DNA from: Alphaproteobacteria bacterium
GTDB lineage: Bacteria > Pseudomonadota > Alphaproteobacteria > UBA9219 > RFNS01
Reading direction: 5' to 3'
Assembly (NCBI GenBank): GCA_037200005.1
Contig: JBBCGY010000001.1
Span: 1,569,103-1,633,102 of the forward strand
Length of the DNA stretch: 64,000 bases
A model generated the notes under the pieces. The model was not told the DNA's origin. It saw nothing but the letters and a program-made list of their open reading frames with translations, and did no database searches. Position 1 is the stretch's first letter; every line of letters starts with the position of its first letter. Both the position numbers and the translations under genes were made by a program. Positions 25,824 through 38,758 of the stretch are shown piece by piece.

Positions 25824-26975
25824 TTACGGTTTGAGGGCTACGAGAACTTTAGCGCCGCCGGCGGGGTCTTTCGGCGGCACCGGGGACGACAAGCATGGAA
25901 GCCGCTTGAAATCCGTCGGCGCGCCGTTTTCGCGCGCCTCGAAATGCAGATGATAGCCCGTCGCCTCACCGGTCATGCCGACATAGGCGAAAACGCTTCC
26001 GGCGGGAATGACCGTCCCCAATTTCAGCCCTTCGGCAAATCCATCCAGATGGCCGTATACGGTCGATACCCCGCCGGCATGGCAAATTTCGGCCATCGTT
26101 CCATAGCCGGCATCCTCGGCAATTTTGCATAGCACGCCGCTTGCCGGGGCTCTTACCGGCGTGCCCTGAATCTGTTTCATGTCCGCGCCGAAATGCATGC
26201 GCGGCGCGGTGGCATGATCTTGAATGCGGAAAAGAGAAGTATAGCGCATGACATCCGCCAGCGGCGTCACGCAGCCGAGAAACGGATTCTCGACACCCGC
26301 GCCCGAAGCCGCGGCAAGCGCGGCTTCGTTCGTCAAATATCCGTCCCTGATGCGCTCGGTCTTTCCCATTTCCTTGAGCAATTCATGCGACATCCGCAGC
26401 GTATATTTCATCATGGCGGTGACGTAATCGCGCGCGTCGGCGGGAAGAGCGTTACGCCAGGATTTGCCGTGAATCCTCACGGCTTTATCGACGTTTTTTT
26501 CCCCTATGCGATAGGCGGCAAGCGCCTTCTCGGCATCGCCGCCCTGCGCCTTGAGCAGTTCCGCCATATGCGCGGCGCGGGCGGCGACAAAGGCCGCGCT
26601 GTCGCCTCCCTGCGCGACGCCGTTGGGCGCTTCAGACCAAAGCTGCGCCGCCAGCATGTGGGGATCGAGCGTATAGCCGCGCGCGTTTTCCAGAATGAGG
26701 GGAATATATTCAGGCTGCCTGCGCAGCATGCCATCGACGGGATCGCTGGAATCGGAAGCAGCGCCAGGGACAATAACGGGAACGGAAGCGGTGTGCGCGC
26801 TTGGGACAGCGTTCGCGCCTGGATCGGCTTGCGTATTAATCGGCCCTACCCAGGACGGTTTTGCATTTTGCGTTTCGCGTTCGTCGCAGCCGGTGGCGGC
26901 AACGGCCAAAATCTCGGCAGCGGCGACGAAAAAAGCCGCTCCGCGGCTTTTGCCGTTAAGCGAAGCGCGGCGCAT
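25824..26975 (-). CDS. Lipoprotein with SLT-like and M23 peptidase domains
   Basis: The signal peptide ends in a lipobox (VAATGC, lipid-modified Cys30), placing the protein on a membrane. Residues about 85-190 resemble a lytic transglycosylase: QLWSEAPNG with Glu115, AAYRIGEKNV (like AYNxGxxxV), and LPADARDYV. The C-terminal M23 (LytM) endopeptidase domain has all zinc motifs: H261FGAD265, YGHLDGF (H309) and HLHFEAR (342-348). It could cut both glycan strands and cross-link peptides. It overlaps the upstream secreted protein by 20 bp. The 951-codon gene upstream has a similar layout. Confidence 0.8.
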   Translation of the reverse strand: MRRASLNGKSRGAAFFVAAAEILAVAATGCDERETQNAKPSWVGPINTQADPGANAVPSAHTASVPVIVPGAASDSSDPVDGMLRRQPEYIPLILENARGYTLDPHMLAAQLWSEAPNGVAQGGDSAAFVAARAAHMAELLKAQGGDAEKALAAYRIGEKNVDKAVRIHGKSWRNALPADARDYVTAMMKYTLRMSHELLKEMGKTERIRDGYLTNEAALAAASGAGVENPFLGCVTPLADVMRYTSLFRIQDHATAPRMHFGADMKQIQGTPVRAPASGVLCKIAEDAGYGTMAEICHAGGVSTVYGHLDGFAEGLKLGTVIPAGSVFAYVGMTGEATGYHLHFEARENGAPTDFKRLPCLSSPVPPKDPAGGAKVLVALKP

Positions 26976-27336
26976 ATAACCCTATTCCCCGGCGAGAGTC
27001 GCCCGCCGCATATTCCCAGTCGGTATCGTCGCGCAAGCTTCTTGCAGGAGGAGCGGCGGGAGCTTTGGCAGGGGCGCTCTTGCGCTTGATAAGCGGCACG
27101 CGCGGTTTGCTCTTTTCCTTGGGATGAGAGACAGATGCCCGGGACGGGCATACCATCTGCTCCGGCACGCACATATCATTCTTGTATTCGATGAACTGCG
27201 TTCCGCAGCTGGAGGGAACATCCTGAGGAGGCGCCAATGACATGGCCGCCGCCCCGTCTTCTTGCGCCCGCGCTCCGGCGGAGTGCAGAGCCAGCAAAGA
27301 AATCGCCACCGCCGAAATACCGGATTTCATTTTCAT
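26956..27336 (-). CDS. Small secreted protein with paired cysteines
   Basis: A signal peptide (ISAVAISLLALHSAGARA) is followed by about 100 residues. These contain three Cys close together (SSCGTQFIEYKNDMCVPEQMVC) and a basic Lys/Pro-rich tail. I do not recognise the family. It lies between two peptidoglycan-hydrolase genes and overlaps the downstream one, so it may be part of the same operon and act in the periplasm. Confidence 0.6.
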   Translation of the reverse strand: MKMKSGISAVAISLLALHSAGARAQEDGAAAMSLAPPQDVPSSCGTQFIEYKNDMCVPEQMVCPSRASVSHPKEKSKPRVPLIKRKSAPAKAPAAPPARSLRDDTDWEYAAGDSRRGIGLYAPRFA

Positions 27337-27378: not shown

Positions 27379-30232
27379 CTAACTCTGGTTCGGCGAATTG
27401 AACCGCACCGCGTAATTGCGGAATTGCCGCACACCCGCCAGGCTCAAATAAGGCGCGGGATTGATCGGCTGGTTGTTGTGCCGCACTTCGAGATGCAAAT
27501 GATATGGCATGCCGGGCTGGGCGGCGTTGCCGGTCTTGCCGACGTAGCCGATCACGTCGCCGGGACGCACCGGACGGTTAAGAAGGCTGCCGGGCCGCGG
27601 CATGGCATCGCGATCCAGATGGGCGTAAATCGAAGCTATGCCGCCGCCGTGGCAGACCTTGATCATCCGGCCAAAGCCGCTCGCGCCGCCATCCGGCCCG
27701 TCTGTGTCGCCGCATATGACGCCGCTGCCGATCGCGGAAACCGGCGTGTCTTTCGCCGCCACAAGATCAGTGCCCACATGCATATGGCCGGGGCGAGCTT
27801 CGCCGAAGCCATGGGTATCCATAACGGACCCCGGCGGCAGCGGCGATGCGATGCGCGCGCCCGAAGCGTTGTTATTGGGCACAGCGGCATAAGGCGAAGC
27901 GCCGTAAGGGGCGACACTGGCGACAGGCGCGCTGACGGCGGGTTCGGAAGCAACAGGCGCGGCGACGGCGATGCCCCGGAGTTTGGCAATCGCGACCTGC
28001 AGATTGACCGGATAATTTTGCGGCGTCGGATGCACATGGCCGCCGTCAAGCCCGACCAGCGGCCCGGAAAACAGCACGCCTTGCTCGCGCGCGATGCGCT
28101 CCAAAGCGGGGTTGGCGCCCTTGATGTCGTCGCGGTCGCCGACGCCGATGATGACGATGTTCTTCGCGCCGCCGGCGCGGGCCGCAGCGATCTGCTTCGG
28201 AACATATTCCTCGATCTGGGAAACGCCGTTGCTCGCGCCGGTCGACAAGATCAAATTCTCCCGCATCCGGCCTTCCCGACCCATTTTCTCGACGAAGCCG
28301 AGAACCGTCTTCGGGTTTTGGCTCACAAGAGCTTCGCTGGCGGTTTTCGCGCCGAGAACGCCCGGCGCCGCGTCGCGATAGCCTTCGGCCAGACTGTCGC
28401 CGGCGATGGCGACATTGGACGCCGTGACTTCCGTCTTGGCCGCCTGGAGACTCTGGTTGAGATTAGAGCCGGGCGCGGGCCAGACCTGGACGAATACCTC
28501 GCCGCCCCAGTGCACGCGCGGATTACCGGGTTCGGGGGGGTGGTTGTCGGCAAAGACGGTGACATAAAGCCGTCCGTCGGGGCTGCGGCCATTGGGGAAC
28601 ATCGGCTTGGCTTCCCCGACGGAAGCATGCTCGCCCGTGGGCTTGCCGGCGTATTGGTTGAAAACCCGGTTGTCCTCGACGCGAAGAGCCTGTCCGAACG
28701 GAAGGGCGTTGATCTCGCTCTCGCTCATCCGCTTGTAAATCACGCCGCTGCGGCGCGCGTACCCGTTATTCTTCGGGCTGAGGCCGTCACCCTGCACGCC
28801 GTCGAAAGCCTTGGCGATTTCGGACGGCATCGCGCCTGCCGCCTGCGCAAAATTCGGCGCGCCCTGCGGCAGGATATTCGCCAGATAGCCCTGGCTCGGC
28901 GGCTCGGCGGCGGCGACCCCGGCGGAATTCTGAAACGAGGCATTGTTCATCGCGGACGCATAGGTTCCGTAAAGCTTGGTGATGCGCCCGAGATAGCCCT
29001 TGGTTTCGTCTGGAACATGATCTTGCCAATTGCGGCCCGATGCGCGCGCCGCAGCCGTGGCGCGTTGAACGCCGCCTTCGCCCGAATTATAGCCGGCTAG
29101 CGCCTTGTCGGCGCTGCCGTCGTATTTATCGAGCAGATAGGCCATCAGGCGCGCCTGCGCCGGAATGCATTTCTTGGGATCCATCGCATCCTGCACGGTC
29201 ATGCCGTAGGCCGCGGCGGTCGAAGGGATGAACTGGCACAAACCATAAGCATGGCCGATCGCGCCGGTTTTTTTTGTTGCGATAGGTGCTCACGGCATTG
29301 GGATTGCCCGACGATTCCTGGTTGATCTGCGCCGCCAGAAGCACCGGATCCACGCCGCTCTCTTTGGAGGCGGCCATGATGAGCGAACCATATTCGTTCA
29401 GGATTTTGTTGACGACCTTCATATCGGCGCCGCCAACGGCGCCACCGCCGCTCACTGGCGGGGTATACTGATTGTTGTGACGATGAGGGGTATAGGTCTT
29501 CCACTCGGTATCGCTTTCGTCGTCGCCGAATCTGCTGGCCTGCGCCACGCCCCATTGCGTCGCCATGCCGGAATCCAGGCCGTTATAACCAAGCGGGCGC
29601 TGCGGCTCCGGCTTGCTCGCGAGGCTGAGAAGACCCGCTATCACCACCATCGGCGCAACATAGCCACCGAGGCGCGCCCAGTCGCCGCCCATGACCGATG
29701 CGAAAGGCTGCGCGCTTTGCGGGGGGATCGTCGATGCGCGATTGGCCGGAGCGGCGTTCGTCGCTGCCGCACGAGGCGCGACGTAAGTCGGCGGCGCCAC
29801 ATTCGCGGCGGCTTGAGGCATATGGGCGCCGTGCGCCGCCGCCGTCACTTGCGTCGAGCGGGAAGCGGCACGGTACACAGGAGGAACCATGGGGCTGGTT
29901 CCGACCGGCGTGGTGCGAATCCTGCGCGTTGTCGGAGGCCTTCTGCGCCGCGCAGGCTGCGTGGGCATAGCCCGCGCAACACTCTGCCGCTGGGCTTGCT
30001 GCGCCAGATACCAATCGGCCTGGGACGAACGGCGGGAAGATATCGGATGCGACGATGGCGCAGGAGGGCTGACAGGCGCGGCTTGGGCCGACTGATTGTC
30101 CCGACCGCCGGAATCGTCTTCGAGAAAATAAGGGCGCATGCCGCTCCATAGCCGCTTGGCCCCGGACTGCATCGATCCCGCGGGCGGCATCATGGATTTA
30201 AGCTTTTGTCCTATATTTTCAAACATTTCCAA
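27379..30232 (-). CDS. Lytic transglycosylase - GDSL hydrolase - M23 endopeptidase fusion, frameshifted
   Basis: Removing one T from the T8 run at 29268-29275 restores a single protein of about 950 aa. A Pro-rich N-terminus leads to one membrane helix (190-206). An SLT domain follows (275-430; catalytic Glu306 in INQESSGNP, then GHAYGLCQF and AGYNSGEGGV). A GDSL/SGNH hydrolase comes next (Ser613 in AIAGDSLAEGY; DGGH, residues 729-732). The C-terminal M23 domain has H818-D822, YAHLD and HLHLEVR (911-917). The set could cut glycan, remove an ester (for example O-acetyl) and cut cross-links. As sequenced, translation stops soon after the SLT Glu. Confidence 0.85.
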
Positions 30233-36030: not shown

Positions 36031-36729
36031 TCACAATGATTCTAGAAGTTTTTTGAAACAGAAATACATCGGCACACGTCCCGCTTGCAGCGCTTTGGTC
36101 TCATAGCGCGTTTCGATCCAGCCGGGCGAACGAACGGTACTGATGCCGTCGCCTTGCAGCGGCGTGAAGTCAGCGGCCCCTTTCATTTGTTCCGCCGTCC
36201 ATTCCTGCAAGACCGGATCGTCACTGGCGAGCATAAGCGGCGCGCCGGGCTTCATCGCGCGCGCCAAGGCCTTTAGCGTTTCCGGTTGCACGAAGCGGCG
36301 CTCGGCATGGCGCTTTTTCGGCCAGGGATCGGCGAACAGAATATAGACGCGGGTCGAGACAGGAATCCGGCAGCGCGGCGACCAGCTGGCGCGCGTCTTC
36401 GGGGAAAATCCTGATGTTTCGCAATTGCGTCTTATCGATATGGTCGAGCAGCCCGGCGACGCCATTGATAAACGGCTCGCAGCCGATAAAGCCATTTTCA
36501 GGATGCAGCGCCGCCTGCGCCGCGAGATGCTCGCCGCGCCGAAGCCGATCTCGAGCCATAATTCCTTCGGCTTGAAATCGAACCACGCGGCGGGATCGGC
36601 TTTGCCGGGCGGCAATTCGATCCGCAATGCGGGCAGCAGCGTTTCCATCAATCCGCTTTTGCGGACGCGCAACGGGCGTCCCTTGCGGCGCCCATAGAGG
36701 CGCGCAGTTTTTTCAGCCTCATCTTTCAT
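36031..36729 (-). CDS. trmB: tRNA (guanine-N7-)-methyltransferase TrmB, with paired frameshifts
   Basis: TrmB methylates G46 of tRNA. The start (GRRKGRPLRVRK), LWLEIGFGA and the C-terminal half (RVYILFADPWPKKRHAERRF) are typical. Between them about 60 residues are read in the wrong frame. In the +1 frame the same DNA gives the expected GEHLAAQAALHPENGFIGCEPF and LRNIRIFPEDARQL. One base is missing near 36531-36537 and one is extra near 36351-36353, so the ends stay in frame. As written the SAM-binding core is destroyed. Sequencing error is likely. Confidence 0.88.
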   Translation of the reverse strand: MKDEAEKTARLYGRRKGRPLRVRKSGLMETLLPALRIELPPGKADPAAWFDFKPKELWLEIGFGAASISRRRRRCILKMALSAASRLSMASPGCSTISIRRNCETSGFSPKTRASWSPRCRIPVSTRVYILFADPWPKKRHAERRFVQPETLKALARAMKPGAPLMLASDDPVLQEWTAEQMKGAADFTPLQGDGISTVRSPGWIETRYETKALQAGRVPMYFCFKKLLESL

Positions 36730-37523: not shown

Positions 37524-38692
37524 TTACGCCCCGAACGCCCGCTTCAGTTCCGGCACCAGATCGAGTTTTTCCCAGCTGAAATGCCCGTCGAGCGTCGGCT
37601 CGCGGCCGAAATGGCCGTAGCTGGAGGTGGCGGCATAGATGGGACGGTTGAGTTTCAGATGCTCGCGAATACCGCGCGGGCTGAGATTCACCATCTCCTG
37701 GATGACGCTCACCACTTTTTCTTCATCGACGCGCCCGGTGCCGTTCAGATTCACATAGACGCGAGCGGCTTCGAGACGCCGATGGCATAGGCAAGCTGGA
37801 TCGTGCATTTGTCGGCCAGATCGGCGGCGACGATATTCTTGGCGAGATAACGCGCCATGTATGCCGCCGAGCGATCGACCTTGGTCGGGTCCTTGCCGGA
37901 AAAAGCGCCGCCGCCATGCGGCGCGGAGCCGCCATAGGTATCGACGATGATCTTGCGTCCCGTCAGGCCGGTATCGCCGTCCGGGCCGCCGATCACGAAG
38001 CGCCCGGTCGGGTTGACGTAAAAATGCTCCTCGGGGCACATCCAGCCCTTCGGCAGAATCTGCTCGACATGCGGACGGACGATCTCGCGCACCTGGTCCT
38101 GCTCGATGCTGTCGTCATGCTGCGTGGACACGACGATGCGCGCGGCGCGCACCGGCTTGCCGTCCACATATTCCAGCGTCACCTGGCTCTTGGCGTCGGG
38201 GCCGAGCAGCGGCGCCGCACCGCTGTGCCGCGCTTCGGCAAGCGACCGGAGAATCCCGTGAGCGTAATGGATCGGCGCGGGCATGAGCTGCGGCGTCTCG
38301 CGGCAGGCGAAGCCGAACATGATGCCCTGATCGCCCGCGCCCTCGTCCTTGTTGCCGCTGGCGTCGACGCCTTGCGCGATATCGGCGGACTGAGCGTGAA
38401 CCAGCATGTCCACGTCGCACCATTGCCAGTGGAATCCCTTTTGCGCATAGCCGATATCCTTCACGGCGGCGCGGGCGGTCTCCACCACGTCGGCGGGCTT
38501 GAAGCTGGCATCCGAGCGCATTTCGCCCGCGATGACGATGCGGTTGGTGGTGGCGAGCGTCTCGATGGCGAGACGCGCCTGCGGATCGGCACGCAAATAC
38601 ATGTCGACGATGGCGTCGGAAATGCGGTCGCACACCTTATCGGGATGGCCTTCGGCGACGGATTCACTGGTAAAGAGATAATGCTTGCTCAT
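37524..38692 (-). CDS. metK: S-adenosylmethionine synthetase, frameshifted
   Basis: MetK makes SAM from ATP and methionine and is nearly always essential. The protein starts [20 protein letters not shown] and carries [12 protein letters not shown] (residues ~117-128), [19 protein letters not shown] and [16 protein letters not shown]. Near 37761-37768 one base is missing: the frame ends ASM-stop, while the other frame continues [16 protein letters not shown] to [18 protein letters not shown]. Restoring a base gives 389 aa, the normal length. This lesion in an essential gene argues for a sequence error. Confidence 0.93.
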
Positions 38693-38758
38693 GCTGCCCC
38701 ACATAAATGAGGCAAGAGAACAGCATGATCGCGGGCGGCGATCAAGGGGGCGGATATT

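Follow-up and report, generated by a model that had tools for sequence, protein, structure and literature searches.

A predicted membrane-anchored SLT–M23 peptidoglycan hydrolase carrying an SGNH module related to those of phage lysins

We describe here a protein of 950 residues, encoded within a 64,000-nt window (the whole stretch of alphaproteobacterial DNA that was analysed), which is a variant of known peptidoglycan hydrolases with an uncharacterised and rare SGNH module shared with phages. The chain has, in order, a Pro/Ala-rich N-terminus, a hydrophobic segment, an SLT lytic transglycosylase domain, an unassigned region, the SGNH domain and an M23 endopeptidase domain (Table 1). We consider the chance to be about even (roughly 0.5) that this is a three-module periplasmic hydrolase, in which the SLT and M23 domains would act as cutters while the SGNH domain would remove an ester from peptidoglycan. 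More tentatively, SGNH domains having the block III signature 'LS[ST]GASN' could constitute a mobile peptidoglycan-tailoring module, exchanged between phage virion lysins with muramidase, SLT or M15 domains and, in the present case, a bacterial SLT–M23 enzyme, so that a single chain strips a wall ester while cutting glycan as well as peptide.

Table 1. Features of the SLT–SGNH–M23 gene and of the two genes next to it
Feature	Positions	Strand	Residues	Remarks
Whole gene	27379..30232	-	950 codons	With the A8 run read through; ATG at 30226 is the likely start
Predicted single membrane-spanning stretch	29615..29671	-	188-206	Kyte-Doolittle maximum
SLT lytic transglycosylase domain	29038..29383	-	284-398	PF01464, 73.4 bits, E 1.5e-20
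A8 run, site of frame break	29268..29275	- (T8 on +)		Inside the SLT domain
Linker region	28432..28761	-	491-600	Beta-rich prediction, very low confidence
SGNH domain	27967..28419	-	605-755	Ser613, Asn668, Asp729, His734; AlphaFold2 model, structure searches, alignment A3
M23 endopeptidase domain	27457..27783	-	817-925	PF01551, E 1.8e-17
Small gene between the two hydrolases	26956..27336	-	126 aa	Signal-peptide-like start, no family match
Tandem paralogue	25824..26975	-		Lipoprotein-like start, degenerate SLT remnant and M23, no SGNH

Reading frame and the flanking domains

The gene is present in the assembly as an overlapping pair of open reading frames on the minus strand (29126-30232 and 27379-29241) that meets at the A8 run. 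The sequence-only reading had proposed that a single polypeptide spans this run, and the SLT domain bears that out, since the read-through protein matched the PF01464 profile at 73.4 bits over positions 2-111 of 117, with both halves in register, compared to 20.7 and 34.9 bits for the separate halves (profile positions 2-34 and 40-111). The downstream frame starts in the middle of the SLT domain and is therefore no separate gene. An indel error of the assembly is the likeliest cause of the break, because two conserved genes elsewhere in the window, metK (37524-38704) and trmB (36031-36729), which here served as controls for assembly frame errors, are likewise frame-broken. A real break, whereby the gene would be decaying or its full-length product made only through slippage on the A8 run, seems quite improbable. 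No mononucleotide run in the window is longer than this one, and transcriptional slippage, although best known at A9/T9, is possible at shorter runs in some bacteria (PMC1088944). Against this, the single metK copy of the genome is split across two frames and trmB has two breaks, which indicates that the assembly carries indel errors; the remaining gene, moreover, is open across 950 codons, and each of the three domains has motifs that look intact. Slippage on eight bases is also less likely than an assembly error because selection against slippage is evident from nine bases in a sizeable fraction of bacterial genomes (PMC1088944). The chromosomal neighbours are groEL and a spermidine-synthase-like gene on one side, with a histidyl-tRNA-synthetase-like gene and purA on the other.

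The flanking domains and the proposed membrane anchor were also found to agree with what had been read from the sequence. One hydrophobic stretch, preceded by the Pro/Ala-rich region of about 187 residues, fits a single predicted anchor and suggests a cytoplasmic N-terminus with the enzyme domains in the periplasm. The SLT and M23 domains, claimed to have intact-looking sites, both match their profiles, the SLT domain over its whole length, and retain their catalytic motifs, and thereby belong to their respective families: Glu306 (in QESSGNPNA) and AGYNSGEGGV in the SLT domain, and HVGTD (H818, D822), YAHL and HLHLE (HLH 911-913) in the M23 domain, the latter scoring 63.8 bits against a cut-off of 28.7. 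The linker at residues 491-600 gave no convincing relatives in sequence searches; its pLDDT was 41 when modelled alone, and was below 50 for most of the 110 residues preceding the SGNH domain using AlphaFold2.

The SGNH domain and its phage relatives

The middle domain has an SGNH fold as judged from its structural model, structure searches and relatives, which upholds the original assignment in spite of a blank Pfam search. Residues 605-755 gave no Pfam match even at E 10, thus neither to Lipase_GDSL nor to Lipase_GDSL_2, and no named family was found in Pfam, PHROGs or NCBIfam; phrog_19273 (function not known) was the only weak, repeated PHROGs match across its relatives. One standalone relative (L069) matched PF13472 (Lipase_GDSL_2) over its whole length, with E 1.2e-5 and 26.4 bits against a cut-off of 32.9. 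AlphaFold2, using nine family rows, gave an SGNH core with pLDDT mostly 90 or more, and Foldseek with this model found GDSL lipases, PatB and OatA at E < 1e-3 (OatA at E 9e-4). Using VIA-align, where rows within 1 Z were regarded as tied, the top match was the catalytic domain of SaOatA (Z 16.3, 2.5 Å, 144 aa), followed by SpOatA (Z 15.4), TesA (15.3) and arylesterase and acetylesterase folds at about 14. Esterases thus come within about two Z of OatA and the fold alone cannot separate a transferase from an esterase. In a profile search of the PDB, the best plausible matches were weak and were again to OatA (5ug1/5ufy, E 0.13-0.23), while a viral structure library independently ranked a protein of Synechococcus phage S-H38 first.

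The alignment of SGNH relatives (A3) showed the GDS motif, the Leu-Ser, Gly and Asn of block III, and the block V His to be invariant, with Ser613 of block I, the oxyanion Asn668 of block III and His734 of block V being the corresponding SGNH residues here. The conserved His is His734 (in VHP) and not the first His of the DGGH that had been pointed out. Block III reads STGASN, with the spacing GxSN as compared to the classical GxND. In block V, Asp729 lies five residues before His734, whereas most relatives have the Asp at H-3 (DxxH); it is at H-5 also in L065, a phage contig (IMG/VR 3300047329_000014). Judging from these positions, the triad may be altered, with its Asp displaced by two residues in both proteins.

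Outside the source genome, the LS[ST]GASN type of SGNH domain was found in phage sequences and nowhere else, in most cases joined to a muramidase, SLT or M15 domain. A tblastn search against phages found a prophage tape-measure protein of Helicobacter pametensis (BK070131, 35% identity, E 1e-3), and iteration added S-H38, a single-domain Kuttervirus 'putative lipase' and several IMG/VR contigs. The SGNH type was seen beside a phage lysozyme domain (PF00959) in the tape-measure protein, beside an M15 peptidase in S-H38, after an SLT domain (PF01464) in L065, beside an SLT-like end in L045 as judged by motif only, and before an SLT-like motif lacking a Pfam match in L068. This repeated adjoining of varied peptidoglycan hydrolases is the best, though indirect, evidence for peptidoglycan, or something attached to it, as the target of the SGNH domain. 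In BK070131 and its relatives, the homologous SGNH domain, about 35% identical, lies just upstream of the muramidase domain, but these are tail tape-measure proteins with lysozyme or SLT-like partners and no M23. The L065 protein, like the protein studied here, has an SLT domain followed by an SGNH domain, the latter with an LSSGASN block, and the SGNH parts are 41% identical over 78 aa; it is, however, a 1285-aa phage protein that has no M23 domain, and the SLT parts show no sign of recent shared ancestry. The domain order, for which the sequence-only reading knew of no precedent, is thus in part known, as SLT–SGNH already occurs in this phage protein, while the full SLT–SGNH–M23 order was not found elsewhere. 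In the open-licence literature we found no description of an SLT–SGNH–M23 chain, nor any of tape-measure proteins that carry this type of SGNH domain.

Two further observations concern these phage genes. In L065 (2420-6274), the SLT domain is directly followed by the SGNH domain and then by about 650 more residues without a family. The 'putative lipase' of Kuttervirus SeF6a (L044:2941-3366, phrog_14008), which belongs to this SGNH variant and consists of that one domain, is encoded between the genes for the baseplate tail tube cap and the baseplate wedge.

Among bacteria, genomes of the order (33), the class (385) and the phylum (398) were searched with the A3 profile, and the present gene was the only true match. 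These samples overlap and comprise at most about 800 distinct genomes, with no second LS[ST]GASN copy in any of them. A class-level match (L071) was rejected as a von Willebrand A protein, the LLSDGTSN of which merely resembles block III. Weak sequence matches in other genomes of the class were scattered pieces, none with a whole SGNH domain, and tblastn searches of plasmids gave no match. Ordinary relatives of the M23 part occur nearly everywhere, those of the SLT part being scattered and distant.

Possible roles of the SGNH domain

According to the reading that we prefer, the protein would be a periplasmic peptidoglycan hydrolase, anchored in the inner membrane, whose three modules are all catalytic. 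Its SLT domain would cleave glycan strands by lytic transglycosylation, the M23 domain would cleave stem-peptide cross-links, and the SGNH domain would strip from this substrate an ester, most likely the O-acetyl group at C-6 of MurNAc, such that one chain de-blocks, cuts glycan and cuts peptide at one place. Both the activity of each domain and the ester substrate are inferred. MurNAc C-6 O-acetylation is known to keep lytic transglycosylases from forming their 1,6-anhydro product, and peptidoglycan O-acetyl groups are removed by Ape enzymes, which are of the SGNH type (PMC6174289). Ape is the functional model, with OatA being the best structural match; OatA, PatB and Ape all share the SGNH fold, but they are separate enzymes or are fused to a membrane acyltransferase and not to SLT and M23 domains, and identity of the SGNH domain to OatA is only 10-14%. 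Should the SGNH domain indeed de-acetylate peptidoglycan, removal of a group that blocks both lysozyme and lytic transglycosylase would be coupled to the cutting domains in one chain, in phages as well as in one bacterium or more. This would account for a set of phage-lysin domains that lack annotation.

Several results weaken the ester-removal reading. Among solved structures, the closest are catalytic domains of O-acetyltransferases. The Asp of block V is displaced both here and in L065, the sampled genomes contained no orthologue by which selection on the SGNH site could show, and no gene specific for peptidoglycan O-acetylation was identified in the host genome. The host does have an MBOAT gene that adjoins the gene of an ALGX-like SGNH protein, with a glycosyltransferase close by (L091:2023-5139), a pair that by analogy looks like exopolysaccharide O-acetylation, and also an AT3–SGNH fusion; the pair and the AT3 genes could acylate envelope polymers.

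The structural ranking would fit a peptidoglycan O-acyltransferase similar to OatA or PatB, which by adding acetyl groups would limit or position the cutting by its neighbouring domains, as SaOatA and SpOatA were the top structural matches, PatB was among the first found with Foldseek, and the weak PDB profile matches were likewise to OatA. We nonetheless consider this unlikely. TesA, an arylesterase and carbohydrate acetylesterases follow within 1-2 Z units, and the joined protein has one predicted transmembrane stretch and no AT3 domain, so that its likeness to OatA is limited to the catalytic domain; nor was an AT3 or MBOAT partner found among the neighbours examined. Phage virion lysins would, moreover, presumably gain little by protecting a wall that they must cross. 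The displaced Asp, together with the non-canonical block III, could instead indicate that the SGNH domain has little or no catalytic activity and serves to bind substrate, thereby directing the lysin to the wall. To this we assign a still lower likelihood, because the Ser, the block III Asn and the His are invariant in divergent relatives, which fits catalysis better than binding.

The tandem paralogue and origin of the fusion

The paralogue located next to the small gene matched the joined protein by blastp in both its M23 domain (E 1e-18, 39% identical) and the C-terminal part of its SLT domain (E 5e-8, 31% identical). It differs from the 950-aa protein in its lipoprotein-like start, in an SLT remnant that lacks much of the N-terminal half, and in having no SGNH domain, the last of which points to insertion of the SGNH module. 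The simplest history is probably one where, of an SLT–M23 pair, one member gained a phage-type SGNH module. That variant, seen mainly in phage virion lysins, would accordingly have been inserted into a pre-existing SLT–M23 protein, the direction of transfer being inferred. The paralogue may also act as a partner of the 950-aa protein.
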